Below the pieces are notes generated by a model. It did no database searches. It worked only from the letters and a program-made list of their open reading frames with translations, and was not told the origin of the DNA. Shown here piece after piece: positions 9,109 to 17,269 of a DNA stretch of 37,669 nucleotides. The stretch spans positions 1 to 37,669 of the forward strand of contig CAMARK010000046.1 in NCBI GenBank assembly GCA_945860205.1, written 5' to 3'. The translations under genes and the position numbers were made by a program. The stretch is from Reyranella massiliensis 521. GTDB lineage: Bacteria > Pseudomonadota > Alphaproteobacteria > Reyranellales > Reyranellaceae. Each line of letters starts with the position of its first letter. Position 1 is the stretch's first letter.

Positions 9109-9903
9109 ATGGAACTGGGGTTGGGCGGCAAGCATGCACTGGTGACAGGCTCGACCGCCGGCATCGGCTACGCGATCGCCAGGGGCCTCGCGGCCGAGGG
9201 CGCGCATGTTGTCCTGACAGGGCGCACGCAAGCCGGCGTCGACGCGGCGCTAAAGCGCCTGCGCGATTCGGTGCCCGAGGCCAAGGTGACCGGCATCGCC
9301 GCCGACTGCGCCACGGCCGAGGGCGCGGCCACGGTGTTCGGGGGCGTGCCCGAACTCGACGTGCTGGTGAACAACCTCGGCATCTACGGTCGCAAGCCCG
9401 CCTTCGAGATCGACGATGCTGAATGGCGGCGCTTCTTTGAGGTGAATGTCATGAGCGGCATCCGCTTTACGCGCCACTATGCGCCAGGCATGGCCAAGCG
9501 CGGCTGGGGCCGCATCCTCTTCGTGTCGAGCGAATCGGCGCTCAACATTCCGCCCGAGATGATCCACTACGGCATGACCAAGACCGCCCAGCTCGCGATC
9601 AGCCACGGCTTCGCCATGGAACTTGCCGGCACGGGGGTGACGGTGAATGCGCTGCTGCCGGGCCCGACCCACACCGAGAATACCGACCGGCTGCGCGCCG
9701 AACGCGCCAAGGCTGCCGGCGTGACGGTCGCGGAGATCGAGGCGGCGTTCCTGCGCGACCACAGGCCGACCTCGCTGATCCGCCGCTTCACCTCTGCCGA
9801 CGAGGTGGCGGCGCTCGGAGTCTATCTTTGCAGCGAGGTGGCGTCGGGAACCTCGGGCGCCGCCATGCGAGTCGACGGCGGCGTCGTGAACCAGATCATG
9901 TGA
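9109..9903 (+). CDS. SDR family oxidoreductase
   Basis: This is a classical short-chain dehydrogenase/reductase of 264 residues that uses NAD(P)H to interconvert an alcohol and a ketone. The cofactor motif TGSTAGIG is at residues 13-20, and NNLGIYG corresponds to NNAG. The active site has Tyr154 and Lys158 (YGMTK), with the catalytic Ser in the preceding VSSESA strand. The C-terminus has the usual G-A-A-M-R-V-D-G-G pattern. The ATG follows GAGGG, which overlaps the upstream stop. It is probably co-transcribed with the PaaK-like gene, consistent with a role in converting a CoA-activated or free acid (inference). Confidence 0.93.
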   Translation: MELGLGGKHALVTGSTAGIGYAIARGLAAEGAHVVLTGRTQAGVDAALKRLRDSVPEAKVTGIAADCATAEGAATVFGGVPELDVLVNNLGIYGRKPAFEIDDAEWRRFFEVNVMSGIRFTRHYAPGMAKRGWGRILFVSSESALNIPPEMIHYGMTKTAQLAISHGFAMELAGTGVTVNALLPGPTHTENTDRLRAERAKAAGVTVAEIEAAFLRDHRPTSLIRRFTSADEVAALGVYLCSEVASGTSGAAMRVDGGVVNQIM

Positions 9904-9919
9904 CGGTCCGTGAGGCCCG

Positions 9920-10942
9920 TCAGTTCACGTCGAGCTTCAGCCCTTCCTTGTCGATCACGCTCTTCCACAGCGCGATCTGGGCATTCACGAAGCCGTTGAA
10001 CTGCTCGGGCGTGCCGTAGGCGGGGAAACCCGCCATGGTCTTGAAGCGCTCCTTGGTCTTCTCGTCGTCCAGCCAGGCCTTCATCTGGGCGTTGAGCGAG
10101 TCAACGATGGGCTTGGGCGTGGCGGCGGGGAGGAAGACGCCGAACCAGGTCGAGACGTCGAACGGCTTCAGCTCGGGCATGGTCTCGCAGATCGGCACGA
10201 GGTCCGGCGTCAACGGGTTGCGCTCCTTGGAGGTAAGGCCCAGCGCTCGTAACTTCCCTGCCCGCACGAATTCGATCGAGGTCGTGAGATTGTCGAAGAA
10301 GAACTGGGTCACCCCTGCCGTCAGGTCCTGCAGCGCCGGCGCCGCACCGCGGTAGGGGATGTGCTCGGCCTTGGTGCCGGTGAGCTGGAGGAACCAGGCG
10401 GCCGAGAGGTGCGGCGACTGGCCGGTTCCGGACGAGGCGTAGGAGACCTTGCCGTTCTGGGCTTTTAGCCAGGCCACGAACTCCGGCACGGTTTTGGCCG
10501 GCACCGACGGGTGGAGCACCAGCACGTTGGGCGCGGTCAGCACGCACGACACCGGGATCAGGCTGGCCTGCGTGTAGGGCATGTTGCGGTAGAGCGAATA
10601 GGCGATCGACTGCGGGCCGATATTGCCCATCAGGACCGTGCTTCCGTCGGGGGTCGACTTGACCACCTCGGCCGAGCCGATGACGCCGCCGGCGCCCGAC
10701 TTGTTGTCGACCACGCAGGACTGGCCCCAGGCCTGCTGGAGATGGGCGGCCAGCAGGCGGGCCACGATGTCGGTGGTGCCGCCAGGCGCGGCCGGGACGA
10801 CGATCTTGACTGCCTGGCTGGGCTTCCAGGGCGACTGAGCGCGGAGGCCACTTGGAATTGTAAGGGAGGGCAGCAGGGCGGCGGCGGCGGTGGCCCCCAT
10901 ACCCAAACGAACGGTGGCGCGACGGGAAAGGCGGCGGATCAT
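9920..10942 (-). CDS. Bug-family (TTT) periplasmic solute-binding protein
   Basis: Bug proteins are the extracytoplasmic receptors of tripartite tricarboxylate transporters and bind small carboxylates, nicotinate and similar ligands. The product has 340 residues from ATG 10942, which follows GAGGAA. The leader contains SRRATVRLG and a hydrophobic stretch, so Tat export is possible. Family motifs are KIVVPAAPGGTTDIVARL, VVDNKSGAGG, the HLSAAWFLQLTG region and HIPYRGAAPALQDLTAG. No TctA/TctB membrane subunits lie nearby, as is usual for the many orphan Bug genes of alpha- and betaproteobacteria. The 211-nt gap to the divergent gene at 11154 holds both promoters. Confidence 0.93.
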   Translation of the reverse strand: MIRRLSRRATVRLGMGATAAAALLPSLTIPSGLRAQSPWKPSQAVKIVVPAAPGGTTDIVARLLAAHLQQAWGQSCVVDNKSGAGGVIGSAEVVKSTPDGSTVLMGNIGPQSIAYSLYRNMPYTQASLIPVSCVLTAPNVLVLHPSVPAKTVPEFVAWLKAQNGKVSYASSGTGQSPHLSAAWFLQLTGTKAEHIPYRGAAPALQDLTAGVTQFFFDNLTTSIEFVRAGKLRALGLTSKERNPLTPDLVPICETMPELKPFDVSTWFGVFLPAATPKPIVDSLNAQMKAWLDDEKTKERFKTMAGFPAYGTPEQFNGFVNAQIALWKSVIDKEGLKLDVN

Positions 10943-11153
10943 CGATTCCTCACATTTTTGTATAGCTGGATGACCCGTAACATGACCCCATGAGTCGACC
11001 AAGCGCGTGCGCCGCGCCTGTTCCGCGCTCGTGTCGCACTGGCAAATTCGCCACATTTCCCGTATCAATATGTTTGTGCGGTCGCCCCCGAATCGCCGGG
11101 CTCTTCCGGCGGGTTTGCCCCCTCTCACGGGGTCCGCGCCATGGAGGACTATC

Positions 11154-12023
11154 TTGAAGAGGCGCACTTTCGTCTCCGGTACGGCGGCACTCGCCACGGC
11201 CGGTTTCGTCTCGCCGGCATTCGCCGCGACGATCAAGCCCTATAGCTGGGATCTCAACCCGCCGACCGACACGCGCGACAATTTCATCGCGTGGGGCAAG
11301 GCGCGCGGCGAGGATCCCGTGTTCCTCGGCCAGCGCTGGGACCGCTTCCAGGCGCTGCTCAAGAACAAGGACATCTGGGGCGCGCCCACCATCCGCGCCT
11401 TCCTCCTGACGCCGCGCGAAGAATTCGCCTCGGTCAATCCGGCGATCTACAAGCGCGCCTACGAGCACAACTTCCTCGATATCGGCTACGGCGTGACGAT
11501 GTCCGGCCCCCATCTCCAGGGCCGCATGACCAACGTCCTCGACATCAAGCGCGGCGAGAAGGTGCTCGAGATCGGCACCGGCTCGGGCGTCCAGGCGGCC
11601 TACCTCGCCAATCTCACCGAGAACACCTACACGATCGAGATCATCGCCCCGCTCGCCGCCCGCACGCGCGCGCTGTACGACAAACTGATCGACAAGGGCT
11701 ACACCGAATACAAGCACATCAAGACCAAGGCTGCCGACGGCTACTACGGCTGGGAACAGGCGGCGCCCTTCGACAAGATCATCGTGACCTGCGGCATCGA
11801 CCACGTGCCGCCGCCGCTCCTGCAGCAGCTCAAGACCGGCGGCCTGATGGTCATTCCGGTGGGCCCGCCGGGCGCCCAGCGCGTGCTCAAGGTCTCGAAG
11901 ACGCAAGGGTCCGATGGTTCCATCACCACGAGCCGCGAGGACATCTACGGCGGCAAGATCGTGCCGTTCGTGCCCTTCACCAAGCTCGACGGCGACAAGA
12001 TCGCGGGCACGCACAACCGCTGA
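11154..12023 (+). CDS. Protein-L-isoaspartate methyltransferase-like protein with Tat-type signal
   Basis: The TTG at 11154 is chosen as start because GGAGG (11143-11147) lies 6 nt before it and the product then begins MKRRTFVSGTAALATAG, a twin-arginine signal (RRTFV) with a probable cleavage site after AFA. Longer starts bury this leader. Of 289 residues the C-terminal two thirds follow isoaspartyl methyltransferase: GYGVTMSGPH at the substrate loop, the S-adenosylmethionine motif VLEIGTGSG, ADGYYGW and FDKIIVTCGIDHVP...LLQQLKTGG. Known repair enzymes are cytosolic, so an exported form is odd, since S-adenosylmethionine is not known in the periplasm. The next gene, 99 nt away, also carries a methyltransferase-like fold. 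Confidence 0.85.
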   Translation: MKRRTFVSGTAALATAGFVSPAFAATIKPYSWDLNPPTDTRDNFIAWGKARGEDPVFLGQRWDRFQALLKNKDIWGAPTIRAFLLTPREEFASVNPAIYKRAYEHNFLDIGYGVTMSGPHLQGRMTNVLDIKRGEKVLEIGTGSGVQAAYLANLTENTYTIEIIAPLAARTRALYDKLIDKGYTEYKHIKTKAADGYYGWEQAAPFDKIIVTCGIDHVPPPLLQQLKTGGLMVIPVGPPGAQRVLKVSKTQGSDGSITTSREDIYGGKIVPFVPFTKLDGDKIAGTHNR

Positions 12024-12051
12024 CGTCGATACGCTACGACACCAAACACGA

Positions 12052-12080
12052 CAGGGCCGCGCCATGAACGCGCGGCCCTG
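12052..12080 (+). other. GC-rich hairpin between two operon genes, no T-tract
   Basis: CAGGGCCGCGC (12052-12062) and GCGCGGCCCTG (12070-12080) are exact reverse complements with a 7-nt loop. No run of T follows, so it is not a standard intrinsic terminator. Lying 29 nt after the methyltransferase-like stop and 42 nt before the next start, it may act as an attenuator, an RNA-stability element or a weak terminator. Confidence 0.65.
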
Positions 12081-12122
12081 ATCGGCCGCAACGACGGCCC
12101 AACAACACGGAGCCTCCCCCCT

Positions 12123-14771
12123 TTGACCGTCTCCGTCGATCTCGACAATCGTCCGTCGCTTTCCTTCTATCTTTCCGTAGGCCTGGTCGCCGGCAGTATC
12201 ATCGCGCTGCAGATCGGCATCATGCGGGTCTTCTCGGTCGGCAGCTGGGCCCATTTCGGCTCGCTGGTCGTGAGCCTCGCCATGTTCGGCTTCGGCCTCA
12301 CCAGCGCGGTCATGTGCGTCGCCAAGGGCTGGTTCGAGCGCCACTGGGAAGGCGCGATCAAGTTCGCGCTGCTCTCCTTCGGGCCGCTGATGGTGGTGTG
12401 CAACCTCGCCGCCCAGCAGGTGCCGTTCAACGCCATCTTCCTGATCTCCGACCCGATGCAGAAGTGGCGGCTGCTCGCCAACTTCGTGCTCTATTTCATG
12501 CCGTTCCTGGCCGGCGCGCTCTATCTCGGCGTCGTCTTCCTCAAGGCGCAGAAGACTTTCAACCGCGTCTACTTCGCCGATCTCGTGGGCTCGGGCCTGT
12601 GCGGACTGTCCGTGCTGCTCGCCATGTACTTCTTCAAGCCCGACGACCTCATCATGGCGCCGCTGCTGCTGTGGCTGGCCGGCGGCGTGCTGTGGTTCGT
12701 GGCCATGAGCGACCGGCGCGGGATCTTCGTCATCGTGGGCGTGGCCGTCCTGTCGGCGGTGGTGCACTACGCGGCGCCGCCGCTGCTTGGCATCCCCAAG
12801 CTTTCGGTGTCCGACTACAAGGGCGTGTCCTACGCCCGCAAGTTCCCCGACGCCGTGCGCACCTACGAGCACGCCTCGCCGTTCGGCTACCTGGAAGTCT
12901 ATTCCAGCTCCTACCTGCATTTTGCACCGGGCCAGTCCGACAACGCTGCCTTCAATGTCCCGAAGATGCCGTCCAACGCCTATCTCGGCCTTTACATCGA
13001 CTCCGAGGGGCCGTCGGGCATCATCAAGGACCTGCCGGCCGACGAGACGCCGTATTTCCGATATCTGCCGATGTTCTATCCGTACCTGCTGAAGAAGGAT
13101 CCCAACACCTTCGTCGTGCAGTTCGGCGGCGGCATCTCGACCGCGGTGGCGCTGAAGTCCGGCTCCAAGCACGTGACGGTGGCGGAAGGCAATCCCGCGC
13201 TGCTGACGGCGTTCCGCGAGGACAAGGGGCTCAGGGCCTTCACCAACGACGTGTTGAACAACCCCAAAGTCACGGTCATCGACTACGATGGCCGCCTCTA
13301 CGTCGCCGGCACGAAAAATCGCTACGACATCATCGACCTGTCACTGGCCGATTCGGCCGGCCTCTCGAGCCCAGGTGGCTTCTCGATCGTCGAGAAGTAT
13401 TCTTATACGCGCGAGGCGATGAGCGCCTACATGCGCGCGCTCAGCCCCGGTGGCATCCTCTCCGTCACCATGTGGAACAAGGAAGAGCCGCCCAAGTCGG
13501 TGCTGAAGCTCTACGCCACGATGGTGGCCGCCGCGCGTGACGTCGATGGCGGTAAGGACGTCGCGCAGAAATTCTACGTCGTGTCGTCCTACCTCTCGAC
13601 GGCGACGGTGCTTTACAAGCGTGACGGCTTCTCGCCCAAGGAAGTGGCCGAACTCAACGCCCACACCAAGGCAATGTCGTTCGACGAGATCTACTATCCC
13701 GGCTTCAAGGTCGACACCTCAGCGCTGCCGCAGATCCTCTCCGACTATCGCGACCAGTTCTTCTTCGCGGGCGAACAGGCCGATCCGACGGCGCCGTCGG
13801 ACAAGGAGCCCAACGACAAGCCTCCGCCCGGCGCTCCCGGCGCGCCGGAAGTCAAAGCTGACGGCACGCCACCTGCGCCGATCGTGCCGGCGACCGTGCT
13901 GGGCCGCCTCGCCTGGCACTATCTGATCAACGGCGGCTGGCAGACGGAAATGGCGGACAAATATGTGTTCGACACCCGCATCCTGACCAACCACCAGCCC
14001 TACTTCGCCGCCTACATCAAGGTGGGCGACCTGCTGAAGTTCACCGACCGGCTCGAGCTGGTGCAGGACGAGTGGGGCTACCTGCTGCTGTGGGCGACGC
14101 TCGGCATCGCCACGGTCTTTGCGCTCACCCTCGTGCTTCTCCCCGTGATCTTCGGCTGGCGCACCATCTTCAGCCGCTATCCCGGCAAGGCCGGCACGAT
14201 GCTCTACTTCCTCTGCCTTGGCCTCGGCTACATCATCGTCGAGGTTGGCATGATCTCGCACTTCATCCTGGCGCTTTCCAACGCCACTGTATCGGCCTCG
14301 GTGCTGATCACCGGCATGCTGGTCTTCTCGGGCTGCGGCAGCTTCTTCTCGGAGCGCTACCTCGACCGGGCGCGCACCTTCATGCCCAAGATTTTCCTCG
14401 CCATCTTCGCGATCCTGACGCTCTACGCCTTCACCATCGACTATGCGCTCGACTGGATCGGCACGCTTCCCTATGCGCTCCGCATCGCGCTCTGCATGGT
14501 GCTGCTGTTCCCGCCGGCCTTCCTGATGGGCTTCCCCATGCCGACGGCGATGACGGTGCTGGGCCGCCTCGGCAAGGATCACATGTTCCTGTGGGCCTGG
14601 GGCATCAACGGCTGCTTCTCGGTGATCGGCGCCGCGCTGGTGCCGATCGTGGCGACCAGCTTCGGCCTGCCGGCGGTGGTGCTGCTGGGCGCCGTCGCCT
14701 ACCTGGTCGCGATGCCCGCCTTCTTCTCCGTCCTGATGCCGCTCCAAAAAGGGCGGCCTGCCGCAGCGTGA
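12123..14771 (+). CDS. Membrane protein with spermidine-synthase-like domain between two 7-TM blocks
   Basis: This protein has 882 residues from a TTG start. Seven hydrophobic segments (about 13-215) are followed by a soluble region (about 222-645) and seven more segments (about 650-875). The soluble part contains a spermidine-synthase-type Rossmann fold: FGGGIST at 334-340, acidic Glu355 at the end of the second strand (VTVAEGN), YDIIDLSLADS where aminopropyltransferases have their catalytic Asp region, and LSPGGILSVTMW. A Pro-rich low-complexity insert lies near 553-596. Positive charges fall in the loops after TM2, 4, 6, 8, 10, 12 and 14, so the N-terminus is predicted inside and the soluble domain in the periplasm. 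Its substrate is unknown and true spermidine synthesis is unlikely. Its stop overlaps the next start by 4 nt. Confidence 0.85.
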   Translation: MTVSVDLDNRPSLSFYLSVGLVAGSIIALQIGIMRVFSVGSWAHFGSLVVSLAMFGFGLTSAVMCVAKGWFERHWEGAIKFALLSFGPLMVVCNLAAQQVPFNAIFLISDPMQKWRLLANFVLYFMPFLAGALYLGVVFLKAQKTFNRVYFADLVGSGLCGLSVLLAMYFFKPDDLIMAPLLLWLAGGVLWFVAMSDRRGIFVIVGVAVLSAVVHYAAPPLLGIPKLSVSDYKGVSYARKFPDAVRTYEHASPFGYLEVYSSSYLHFAPGQSDNAAFNVPKMPSNAYLGLYIDSEGPSGIIKDLPADETPYFRYLPMFYPYLLKKDPNTFVVQFGGGISTAVALKSGSKHVTVAEGNPALLTAFREDKGLRAFTNDVLNNPKVTVIDYDGRLYVAGTKNRYDIIDLSLADSAGLSSPGGFSIVEKYSYTREAMSAYMRALSPGGILSVTMWNKEEPPKSVLKLYATMVAAARDVDGGKDVAQKFYVVSSYLSTATVLYKRDGFSPKEVAELNAHTKAMSFDEIYYPGFKVDTSALPQILSDYRDQFFFAGEQADPTAPSDKEPNDKPPPGAPGAPEVKADGTPPAPIVPATVLGRLAWHYLINGGWQTEMADKYVFDTRILTNHQPYFAAYIKVGDLLKFTDRLELVQDEWGYLLLWATLGIATVFALTLVLLPVIFGWRTIFSRYPGKAGTMLYFLCLGLGYIIVEVGMISHFILALSNATVSASVLITGMLVFSGCGSFFSERYLDRARTFMPKIFLAIFAILTLYAFTIDYALDWIGTLPYALRIALCMVLLFPPAFLMGFPMPTAMTVLGRLGKDHMFLWAWGINGCFSVIGAALVPIVATSFGLPAVVLLGAVAYLVAMPAFFSVLMPLQKGRPAAA

Positions 14772-15790
14772 AGCGGCGGGCGCTGCTGCTGGGGGCCTTG
14801 TTGATGCCGACTGCCGCGCACGCCCAGAGCAAGACGCCCCGTAAGAGACAGGCGGCCAAGCCGGCGGCTAAGAAGCCGCCACCACCTCCGCCGCCACCGC
14901 GCGAGGCGAAGACCCAGCTCGTGGCCTTTAATGCCTCGCCGTTTCCCTATCGAGGGTTCATCCCCGACACGAACCGTCAGTTCCTCGATGCGCGCGACGA
15001 CAAGCGGCGCGGCCACACCACGTCGCGTGGCGATGTCTACTGGGAGGACACGGTCTACAGCGACCGTCGCTCGCTGCTCTACCTGCCACCGGCCTTCGAT
15101 CCGGCGCGGCCAGTCTTGATCGTGCTCTATCTCCACGGCCAGGGCGCCACGCTCGAACGCGACGTGATGGTGCGCCAGGCCGTGCCGCGGCAGGTGGCGG
15201 CGTCGGGCCAGAACATCGCCGTGGTCGCGCCGCAGCTCGCCGTCGATGCCGCCGATTCCAGCGCCGGCAATTTCTGGCGTGGTGGCCACTTCGCCAAATA
15301 TCTCGACGAGGCGGCCGAGCGGCTGATGCGGCTGGAGGGCAATCGCGAGTCCGGCCGGGCATTCAACCTGGCGTCGGTCGTGATCGTGGCCTACAGCGGC
15401 GGCTATCTCTCCGCCGCCTATGCGCTGGAACGCGGCGGCGCGAACCATCGCGTAAAAGGCGTCATCCTGATGGACGCGCTCTATGGCGACGAGGACAAGT
15501 TCGCCACCTGGTTCGCCGCGCGCCGGCGCCAGGCTTTCCTGCTGAGCGCCTACACCGATTCCACCAAGGAAGAGAACGCCACGCTGCAGGGCCTGTTGAA
15601 CAAGCGCCGCATTCCTTTTACGCGCAGCGTTCCCCGGACGCTGGCGCCCGGCACGGCGGCGTTCGTGGCCACCGGCGGGCTCGACATGCATGGCGATTTT
15701 GTTACGCGTGCCTGGCAGCCCGATCCCCTCGAAAAAGCGCTGGCGATGATTCCCGGCTACGCCCCGGTTCGTGGTAAAATCGGCGCATGA
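14768..15790 (+). CDS. Exported alpha/beta hydrolase-like protein
   Basis: The GTG at 14768 overlaps the upstream stop as GTGA, indicating translational coupling. The product of 340 residues starts MKRRALLLGALLMPTAAHAQ, a clear signal peptide (the Arg pair might allow Tat). A basic linker follows, then eight consecutive prolines (residues 37-44), which may span or touch the envelope. The hydrolase core has LIVLYLHGQGA (oxyanion-hole strand), the nucleophile elbow AYSGG with Ser in place of the usual GxSxG context, and a C-terminal His in GLDMHGDF as a triad candidate. The substrate is unknown. Being extracytoplasmic, it matches the predicted location of the two preceding products. Confidence 0.82.
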   Translation: MKRRALLLGALLMPTAAHAQSKTPRKRQAAKPAAKKPPPPPPPPREAKTQLVAFNASPFPYRGFIPDTNRQFLDARDDKRRGHTTSRGDVYWEDTVYSDRRSLLYLPPAFDPARPVLIVLYLHGQGATLERDVMVRQAVPRQVAASGQNIAVVAPQLAVDAADSSAGNFWRGGHFAKYLDEAAERLMRLEGNRESGRAFNLASVVIVAYSGGYLSAAYALERGGANHRVKGVILMDALYGDEDKFATWFAARRRQAFLLSAYTDSTKEENATLQGLLNKRRIPFTRSVPRTLAPGTAAFVATGGLDMHGDFVTRAWQPDPLEKALAMIPGYAPVRGKIGA

Positions 15791-16338
15791 GCGACCCCCT
15801 CCGCCAGGAACTTTTAGACATCTTCGTCGGCCGCGCGACGCGCCGCTATGGCTTGAGTGAGATCAACCAGCTTCAGCACGCACTGCAGGCGGCGGCGCTG
15901 GCCGAGGCCGACGCGGCCACGCCCGCCACGGTGCTGGCCTCGCTGCTGCACGATGTCGGCCACATGATCCATCATCTGGGCGAGGACCCGGCCGCCCGCG
16001 GCCTCGACGACGTCCATGAGGAGCTGGGTGCCAAATGGCTGGCCGAGCGCTTCGGCCCCGAGGTCAGCGAGCCGGTTCGCCTTCATGTCGCGGCCAAGCG
16101 CTATCTCTGTGCCGTCGAGTCGGACTATTTCGGCAAGCTCTCGCCCGACTCGGTGCGCAGCCTCGGCCTGCAGGGCGGCCCGATGTCGGCCGACGAGATC
16201 GAAATTTTCAGGCGCCATCCGCAGCATGCCGAGGCCGTGCGGCTAAGGCGCTACGACGAGGCGGCCAAGGACCCCAACGCCCGTACGCCGGACTTCGACC
16301 ACTTCCTGCGCCACGTCGCAGTCTGCCAGCGCGCCTGA
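15787..16338 (+). CDS. HD-domain oxygenase-like protein, PhnZ type
   Basis: This is a cytoplasmic HD-fold protein of 183 residues that overlaps the previous stop by ATGA. PhnZ uses a mixed-valent di-iron centre to cleave the C-P bond of a hydroxylated aminophosphonate. As recalled, the PhnZ metal and substrate residues are Y24, H34, H58, D59, H62, H80, H104, K108 and D161. Here Tyr21, His31, His55, Asp56, His59, His77, His100, Lys104 and Asp157 stand in the same order and spacing. The position of PhnZ Glu27 appears to be Ser24. No phnY-like dioxygenase or C-P lyase gene is nearby, so phosphonate as substrate is only possible. Related HD oxygenases act on other hydroxylated compounds. Confidence 0.83.
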   Translation: MSDPLRQELLDIFVGRATRRYGLSEINQLQHALQAAALAEADAATPATVLASLLHDVGHMIHHLGEDPAARGLDDVHEELGAKWLAERFGPEVSEPVRLHVAAKRYLCAVESDYFGKLSPDSVRSLGLQGGPMSADEIEIFRRHPQHAEAVRLRRYDEAAKDPNARTPDFDHFLRHVAVCQRA

Positions 16339-16345
16339 GCCTCGC

Positions 16346-17269
16346 ATGATTTCCCGCACCGAGGTCGAGGCCGCCTGGAGCCTCATCCGCCCGCACGTCC
16401 GTCGCACGCCAGCGCTCGAACTCGCCGCCGGGTCGCTCGGCATCGCCGCCCCGCTGGCGCTGAAACTCGAGTCGCTGCAGGTGAGCGGCTCGTTCAAGGG
16501 CCGCGGCGCCTTCCACAAAATTCTGGCTTCAAAGGTGCCGGCCGCCGGCATCGTCGCCGCCTCGGGCGGCAACCATGGCGCCGCCGCGGCCTATGCCGCC
16601 CGTGCCCTGGGCCACAGGGCGGAGATCTTCGTGCCCACCGTCTCCTCGCCGACCAAGGTGGCGCGGCTGAAAATCTATGGCGCGATCGTCCACCAGATCG
16701 GCGCCGTCTATGCCGAGGCCCGCGCCGCCTCCGAGGCCCGCGCGGCCGAGACCGGGGCGATGATCGTGCCGGCTTATGAAGATCCAGTCGTGTTCGCGGG
16801 CGCCGGCAGCGTGGCACTCGAGTTTGCCGAGCAGGCCACATTCGACACGCTGCTGGTGGCCGTGGGCGGTGGCGGTCTGATCGCCGGCTGCGCCGCGGCC
16901 ATCGGTGCGGCGACGAAGCTCGTGGCCGTCGAGACCGACGGCACACCGACGCTGCACGAGGCGCTGAGAGCGGGACGGCCGGTCGATGTGAAAATCTCCG
17001 GCATTGCCGCCGACGCGCTGGGCGCCAGCCGCATCGGGGTGCCCAACTTCGAGGTGGCGCAGAAGCTGGTGCGCTCCTCGGTACTCGTCAGCGACGAGGC
17101 GGTCCGCGCGGCGCAACGTGCGTTGTGGGAAGAGCTGCGCATCGTGGCCGAGCCCGCCGGTGCCACGGGCCTCGCCGCATTGATGGCCGGTGCCTACAAG
17201 CCTGAAGCGGGCGAGCGGGTGGCGACGCTGGTGTGCGGCGCCAACACCGATCCCGGGTCGGTAACCTAG
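16346..17269 (+). CDS. PLP-dependent serine/threonine dehydratase-like protein
   Basis: This fold-type II PLP enzyme has 307 residues. The PLP lysine is in SGSFKGRGA (about residue 51), the substrate-binding loop is ASGGNHG, and the phosphate-binding glycine loop is VGGGGLIAG. The family removes water or ammonia from hydroxy-amino acids such as serine or threonine, and some members are racemases. There is no C-terminal ACT regulatory domain, so it resembles catabolic dehydratases. It begins 7 nt after the HD-oxygenase stop and appears to be the last gene of the operon. The convergent monooxygenase gene ends 44 nt downstream. Confidence 0.9.
   Translation: MISRTEVEAAWSLIRPHVRRTPALELAAGSLGIAAPLALKLESLQVSGSFKGRGAFHKILASKVPAAGIVAASGGNHGAAAAYAARALGHRAEIFVPTVSSPTKVARLKIYGAIVHQIGAVYAEARAASEARAAETGAMIVPAYEDPVVFAGAGSVALEFAEQATFDTLLVAVGGGGLIAGCAAAIGAATKLVAVETDGTPTLHEALRAGRPVDVKISGIAADALGASRIGVPNFEVAQKLVRSSVLVSDEAVRAAQRALWEELRIVAEPAGATGLAALMAGAYKPEAGERVATLVCGANTDPGSVT

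Follow-up and report, generated by a model that had tools for sequence, protein, structure and literature searches.

Methylation of bacterial proteins by S-adenosylmethionine (SAM) is generally treated as cytoplasmic chemistry, and we know of no occurrence of SAM in the periplasm; no report of it there was found in the literature searched, which covers few subscription journals. Several described groups of proteins come close to parts of the locus discussed here: the protein isoaspartyl methyltransferases (PIMT/Pcm, PF01135); the proteins of NCBIfam NF002956 and relatives, which we take to be aminopropyltransferases fused to a membrane part; the MFS transporters SV2A, FLVCR1/2, PiPT and AmpG; and, among hydrolases, the feruloyl and carbohydrate esterases and S-formylglutathione hydrolases. 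In a eukaryote, NHMT of Aspergillus is a seven-transmembrane (7TM) enzyme of the ER that methylates secreted proteins, with 7TM homologues that are reported nearly exclusively from filamentous Ascomycota; its authors also consider that such reactions may be restricted by scarce SAM in the ER, and mention plant Golgi SAM transporters in that connection (PMC10349129). The three proteins of our locus each belong to or resemble known families. Their arrangement was not found described, and within the same literature, again with few subscription journals covered, neither an exported PIMT nor the gene pair at the centre of this analysis came up.

The window, meaning the whole 37,669-nt stretch of DNA that was analysed, is contig C46 of an assembly of 4.98 Mb. 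Between 11154 and 15790 it carries three genes in head-to-tail order, here called g1, g2 and g3 (Table 1), and all three lie where an earlier note on this DNA had placed them. Our main reading, to which we give a probability of roughly 0.45, is that g1 and g2 together make up a module for SAM-dependent methylation outside the cytoplasm, in which g2 binds, and may supply, SAM. The gap between g1 and g2 is 99 bases, and the GTG start of g3 overlaps the g2 stop as GTGA, as the earlier note had seen. A fourth gene, for a PhnZ-type HD oxygenase (NCBIfam), overlaps the g3 stop as ATGA; since it lies beside g2 only where g2 is at least 79% identical, we leave it outside the unit. No Rfam match was found in 9500-17000. 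A strong hairpin (z -3.56) stands between g1 and g2, and of 67 intergenic stretches between the two genes 43 contain perfect palindromes, that of L049 being a run of N; the hairpin has no T tract on the + strand and the palindromes differ in sequence, and the hairpin was dropped from the finding. A defence-system reading was set aside; PADLOC matches to mad2 (51.7 bits for g1, 25.4 bits for g2) are partial, covering 252-399 and 301-415, respectively, of the 492 model positions.

Table 1. Features of the g1-g2-g3 locus, in window coordinates.
Feature	Position	Strand	Basis
Shine-Dalgarno-like GGAGG	11143..11147	+	sequence; six bases before TTG of g1
g1, protein-L-isoaspartate O-methyltransferase (PCMT) family protein, exported by prediction, 289 aa, TTG start	11154..12023	+	Pfam, solved PIMTs, SAM motifs
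Twin-arginine (Tat-type) leader of g1, 24 aa, AFA end	11154..11225	+	sequence and leaders of homologues
g2, membrane protein of 882 aa with TTG start; spermidine-synthase-like domain inserted in an MFS-type fold	12123..14771	+	hydropathy, AlphaFold2, Foldseek, VIA-align
g2 N-terminal seven helices, residues 13-222	12159..12788	+	hydropathy, AlphaFold2
g2 spermidine-synthase-like domain, residues ~235-646, predicted outside the cytoplasm	12825..14060	+	fold, Lys+Arg bias
g2 nucleotide-site loop FGGGIS, residues 334-339	13122..13139	+	alignment; Ile/Leu at 338 in place of the Asp/Glu of spermidine synthases
g2 Glu355, acidic residue after beta strand 2, expected SAM-ribose holder	13185..13187	+	kept in 23/24 homologues
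g2 C-terminal seven helices, residues 650-870	14070..14732	+	hydropathy, AlphaFold2
g3, alpha/beta hydrolase, exported by prediction, 340 aa, GTG start	14768..15790	+	sequence, model, Ser210/Asp236/His308
g3 signal peptide MKRRALLLGALLMPTAAHA	14768..14824	+	sequence

The g1 product shares with PIMT/Pcm the catalytic core, the SAM motifs and the TxSxP loop, and its description as isoaspartyl-methyltransferase-like stands: it matches Pfam PCMT at 141.3 bits, above the gathering score of 20.3, and resembles solved PIMTs (1.3e-30). It differs from PIMT/Pcm in its leader, in its link to g2 and in falling below the cut-offs of the NCBIfam PIMT equivalog models (160 vs 188, 137 vs 282 and 134.5 vs 159.05). 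SAM motif I (EIGTGSG), Glu162 and the PIMT loop (TMSGP) are present, and across 24 aligned homologues Glu139, Gly141, Thr142, Gly143, Ser144, Gly145, Glu162, Asp195 and Gly196 are invariant, with the TxSxP substrate loop and the SAM motifs largely conserved. When loose patterns were matched anywhere within each of 43 g2-linked PCMT sequences, remote ones included, motif I was recovered in 42, the post-I acidic residue in all 43 and the PIMT loop in 37. The six sequences in which the loop pattern was missing (L076, L132, L133, L138, L148 and L149) imply that isoaspartate need not be the substrate everywhere. The genome of the window also has a leaderless PCMT, on contig C48, with the best family score. 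In a quick tree of the 43 linked and 33 unlinked PCMTs, in which long branches meet and the deep joins are unsure, the two labels change only twice, against about 25 times when shuffled, and for this reason the exported forms are probably old.

Residues 1-24 of g1 (LKRRTFVSGTAALATAGFVSPAFA) show the three marks of a Tat substrate, namely a twin arginine, a hydrophobic stretch and an AxA end (here AFA), so that the twin-arginine leader claimed in the earlier note is upheld. Leaders of this type are found in most close homologues, but other kinds occur: those of L045 and L119-L131 are Sec-like and have no twin arginine, those of L132 and L133 are Tat leaders that carry a lipobox Cys (Tat lipoproteins), and L153 has an N-terminal membrane anchor in which a basic N-terminus is followed by a single helix and then a charged linker. 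Two arginines are also present in L043 and L044, in leaders that are otherwise Sec-like, and the leaders of L051, L053, L056 and L057 lack the second arginine, leaving their export route unsure. Besides inspection by eye, leaders were scored with a hydropathy test whose threshold was chosen after the values had been seen; it gave a leader in 123 of 128 linked PCMTs scoring at least 90 bits, a redundant set (values at least 1.48), whereas all 33 unlinked PCMTs, taken from places without g2, were leaderless by the hydropathy test (values at most 1.32); 29 of these 33 were the best-scoring matches from 120 genomes rather than a random draw, and one place was counted twice (L144, L165). The linked sequences below the threshold were three at contig ends (L008, L059 and L084), L153, with its anchor further upstream, and a second copy (L067). 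This test and the tree cover PCMTs that reach 90 bits against the g1 profile, which leaves out L112 and L113, for example, and also L072, where just the end of g1 is present. Leaderless homologues in the same neighbourhood had been raised as a possible objection to an exported system, and these counts do not refute such a system.

Such a variety of leaders, kept on linked PCMTs, argues that the extracytoplasmic location is conserved. It also bears on how g1 would obtain its methyl donor. A protein exported by Tat could in principle leave the cytoplasm preloaded with SAM and act once, with no need of a donor in the periplasm, and the twin-arginine leaders of the window and of most close homologues would suit that idea. 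We consider it very improbable, since g2-linked homologues with Sec-like leaders or a membrane anchor would cross as unfolded, empty proteins; g1 is thus unlikely to carry its own SAM out.

The link between g1 and g2 was followed in Pseudomonadota genomes, in genome_contigs (best 80 of 102 matches) and in plasmids. In one draw of 397 Pseudomonadota genomes, 13 gave a g2-profile score above 1000 bits, and the same 13 gave a g1-profile score above 360 bits, the next g1-profile score in that draw being 174.5 bits. This close set amounts to 14 places, and in each of them g1 and g2 are adjacent, within about 160 bp. The close pair is uncommon but tightly linked, and a lack of co-occurrence in other genomes, which the earlier note had named as a possible refutation of its proposal, was not what we found. 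Widening the search to g2-profile matches of 1e-10 or better gave 22 genomes, with a PCMT adjoining in 19 and none in G231, G242 and G264; all of these PCMTs whose sequence was covered, 18 (every one but that of G151), bear a leader. Weaker g2-profile matches (43 to 255 bits, best per genome) adjoin leader-bearing PCMTs in G165, G331, G160, G080, G268 and G386, and do not in G231, G242 and G264.

A leader-bearing PCMT adjoins 13 of 18 remote g2-like loci (L129-L134, L139, L140, L142, L145, L148, L149 and L152), and the five others (L135, L136, L141, L150 and L151) have room on both sides and no PCMT, which means that a protein built like g2 can also occur without g1 as its partner; no other exported methyltransferase was obvious near these five in the lists of open reading frames. 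A convincing g2 match was not found at L137 or L155. Among 127 linked loci, a redundant count in that genomes are shared between searches and the window itself is present twice, the order is g1-g2 in 120, g2-g1 in six and divergent in one (Rhizobium jaguaris, L138). Fifteen loci have g2 without g1; ten of them have less than 370 bp upstream, and the five with room are the remote ones. In the loci examined, wherever a close-lineage g2 has more than 370 bp of sequence upstream, g1 adjoins it or lies one gene away. Extra methyltransferase genes with no clear leader by eye lie near the pair in L139 and L142. Of 17 matching plasmid records five were examined: those of Microvirga, Paraburkholderia and Phyllobacterium annotate the pair as two separate genes, a 'protein-L-isoaspartate(D-aspartate) O-methyltransferase' beside a 'SAM-dependent methyltransferase', and that of Legionella adelaidensis has a g2-like gene without a PCMT. 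Overall, what the earlier note observed is confirmed, the neighbourhood is conserved far more strongly than the sequence alone could show, and the earlier interpretation is partly supported.

Hydropathy divides the second protein, g2, into two sets of seven helices with a soluble block of about 410 residues between them; 14 hydrophobic segments were counted in the window protein, and as many in each of 16 further homologues. Its relatives, 55-96% identical and spread over several orders (among the best 80 of 102 matches, where the nearest are mostly labelled Reyranella), rule out a chance open reading frame. An AlphaFold2 model built with 24 sequences (mean pLDDT 80.3, pTM 0.82) fits the hydropathy if the long element 721-779 is taken as two helices. 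The soluble block falls short of the Pfam SpdSyn cut-off (14.3 bits vs 22.9) and is clearly spermidine-synthase-like by fold: Foldseek finds 1uir at 4.2e-07, all 50 matches that it listed are spermidine synthases or aminopropyltransferases, and VIA-align superposes 1uir with Z 19.0 over 267 residues. No Pfam MFS model matched the membrane part at E 0.1; its modelled fold is MFS-type, with VIA-align scores, used here as a second look at Foldseek candidates and to be set against chance values of typically about 13-14 for helical models, of Z 27.4 over 359 residues for SV2A, 24.2 for FLVCR2, 23.9 for FLVCR1, 22.7 for PiPT (359-370 residues for these SV2A, FLVCR and PiPT matches) and 17.5 for AmpG. 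Unlike these transporters, g2 has 14 helices, the seventh and eighth of which are separated by a large enzyme-like domain. In SV2A, too, the large lumenal loop separates helices 7 and 8, and the 14-helix members of the MFS carry an additional central pair of helices; each of these points would suit a g2 block that lies in the periplasm.

The predicted orientation rests on the positive-inside bias of Lys and Arg. With the soluble block taken as outside, the 24 homologues together have 426 such residues in the eight inside segments, tails included, and 112 in the six short outside loops. With the tails left out, the window protein has 16 inside and 5 outside, and all 16 further homologues, remote ones among them, are biased in the same direction (9-16 inside, 4-7 outside). 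We therefore place the soluble domain of g2, by prediction, outside the cytoplasm, in agreement with the periplasmic spermidine-synthase-like domain of the earlier note and against the cytoplasmic domain that it had named as a ground for doubt. With the PCMT kept outside and a SAM-type domain predicted on the same side, a SAM-type reaction outside the cytoplasm is the simplest reading of the pair.

What this domain binds is suggested by its nucleotide site. The GGGEG of 1uir aligns with GGGIS in g2; Gly336 and Gly337 are kept in 24 of 24 homologues, and residue 338 is Ile or Leu in all of them. Glu355 is replaced once, by Gln. Position 407, where the first Asp of DxxD would stand, is Ser in 21 and Ala in 3, and Asp410, the second Asp, is present in 24/24. 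In remote homologues the loop differs, and by eye none of eight has Asp or Glu at the corresponding position. The domain thus keeps the residues of a SAM-type site and lacks the acidic residue that spermidine synthases need. That g2 might be a periplasmic aminopropyltransferase making surface polyamines, with g1 incidental to it, would draw on the SpdSyn fold and the invariant Asp410, and g2 does match the membrane-fused aminopropyltransferases weakly. It differs from them in its two seven-helix sets with an MFS fold, in the absence of the acidic residue that binds decarboxylated SAM (dcSAM), with Ile/Leu in place of the D/E of GxG(D/E)G throughout, in the Ser/Ala that replaces the first Asp of DxxD, and in curated scores far below their cut-offs (26.3 vs 472 bits for the NF002956 group, 20 vs 260 for another NCBIfam aminopropyltransferase model). 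We rejected this reading, which has hardly any probability left.

The missing acidic residue is itself a likeness to NHMT, in which a change from D/E to Ile in the glycine loop marks the difference from spermidine synthases and a SAM-binding Glu is conserved (PMC10349129). NHMT also places seven helices before its SpdSyn-like domain and acts on secreted proteins in the ER (PMC10349129), a precedent for a SpdSyn-like membrane methyltransferase at work on the distal side of a membrane. In a rival reading, g2 alone would be an NHMT-like membrane methyltransferase of exported proteins, and g1 a further methyltransferase of the envelope, encoded in the same operon but working independently, with neither enzyme relying on the other for its donor. 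The seven helices and SpdSyn-like domain, the Ile/Leu at the D/E position, the conserved Glu and the g2-like genes that have no PCMT all count in favour of two independent enzymes. We find the idea doubtful, given how constantly g1 lies beside or one gene away from close-lineage g2 with enough upstream sequence, and given that the C-terminal half of g2 and its MFS fold exceed what a simple anchor would call for. According to the available part of the NHMT report, that enzyme is without the C-terminal seven helices that g2 has, and no companion methyltransferase is described for it (PMC10349129).

Another alternative keeps both proteins outside but changes the ligand: the two Rossmann sites would bind S-adenosylhomocysteine, methylthioadenosine or some other nucleoside, and the pair would be a sensor or a scavenger. 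Its appeal is that SAM is not known from the periplasm and was not reported there in the literature searched. Against it stands the PIMT substrate loop, needless in a pure binding protein, in 37 of the 43 linked PCMTs, and we regard this reading as unlikely.

For the extracytoplasmic methylation module that we prefer, the steps may be sketched as follows. After export, g1 would work outside the inner membrane, where it would most likely methylate carboxyl groups of envelope proteins, with isoaspartyl repair as our first guess. The inserted domain of g2 would face the periplasm and most likely bind SAM there. Because g1 is unlikely to bring its own SAM and g2 has an MFS fold, we infer that g2 is a candidate donor route: it would move SAM across the membrane for g1, possibly in exchange for S-adenosylhomocysteine. 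Equally, within the same module, g2 may itself be a second methyltransferase that draws SAM through its own membrane part. Stated most specifically, g2 would be an MFS-type SAM exporter or exchanger that hands SAM to the exported PIMT, or uses it beside that enzyme, in a periplasmic methylation system with its own donor supply; this version we hold to be possible, with the odds somewhat against it. The 'unusual donor supply' that the earlier note had invoked has in this way gained a candidate supplier in the fold of g2, with SAM transport as such being what we would add by inference.

The third protein was correctly described as an exported alpha/beta hydrolase. The model (pLDDT 89.0) has this fold, with feruloyl esterases nearest (best Z 16.0), and Ser210 (in YSGGY), Asp236 and His308 are invariant in 21 aligned sequences. 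The fold and the Ser-Asp-His triad are shared with the feruloyl and carbohydrate esterases and the S-formylglutathione hydrolases (Z about 14-16), from which the window protein differs in having no Pfam family match; no Pfam or NCBIfam family was found for it at E 0.1, and Pfam gave weak single matches only across the 21 sequences. Of 108 close loci (L001-L109 except L002), 99 have the gene, as do L118-L127 and L154. It was not found in the 13 remote pairs, in L128, a cut contig, or in L138 and L153; among the nine close loci that lack it, there is enough sequence to contain it in L058, L076, L077 and L078, and the others are short on that side. From this distribution g3 would be an accessory of the closer lineage only. 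The unit of three genes that the earlier note had drawn therefore holds for g1 and g2, which co-occur very strongly, and not for g3, which is no constant partner. As a secreted serine esterase, g3 could in that lineage remove or process the ester made by g1; CheR and CheB are a precedent for a hydrolase that acts on a methyl ester.

The g1-g2 pair may serve in repair or modification of the envelope. An exported PIMT that has been given several kinds of leader, next to a transporter-shaped protein with a SAM-type site predicted to face outward, suggests that the periplasm of these bacteria receives SAM or something closely analogous to it. Furthermore, the pair makes two questions directly testable: how long-lived envelope proteins may undergo repair in a compartment that has no known methyl donor, and what role is played by membrane proteins with an inserted spermidine-synthase-like domain.

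The unit is flanked by a PhnZ-type gene and a TctC-type gene (table). The product of the former scores 206.3 bits against TIGR03276, slightly short of the 214.6 cut-off, and this gene was observed next to the unit only at loci whose g2, the membrane protein with an inserted spermidine-synthase-like domain, is at least 79% identical.

Coordinates of flanking genes, the intergenic hairpin and PCMT-like stretches at other loci
Feature	Locus	Position	Context	Family model
PhnZ-type HD-domain phosphonate oxygenase gene	window	15787-16338	overlaps g3 stop as ATGA	TIGR03276
TctC-type periplasmic receptor gene	window	9920-10945	divergent, upstream of g1	PF03401
G+C hairpin	window	12052-12080	g1-g2 gap	
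Additional PCMT-like stretch	L067	1-1206	contig start, upstream of g2, no clear reading frame; g1 downstream	
g1 homologue	L153	2654-3937		
Remote g1 homologue	L132	6968-8092		
Remote g1 homologue	L133	5649-7412		

The intergenic hairpin is strong (z -3.56) and lacks a T tract on the + strand; an attenuator and a mobile palindrome are two possible readings of it. Palindromes that differ in sequence from that of the window are present at many related loci.

Leaders vary among homologues of g1, the PCMT-family protein. At L153 an N-terminal membrane helix and a long charged linker replace the cleavable leader, and the remote homologues of L132 and L133 carry leaders of the Tat lipoprotein type (VAC, AAC), with SAM motif I intact but the PIMT substrate loop altered. 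The g2-like genes of L135, L136, L141, L150 and L151 have no adjoining PCMT gene, and perhaps represent other subfamilies.
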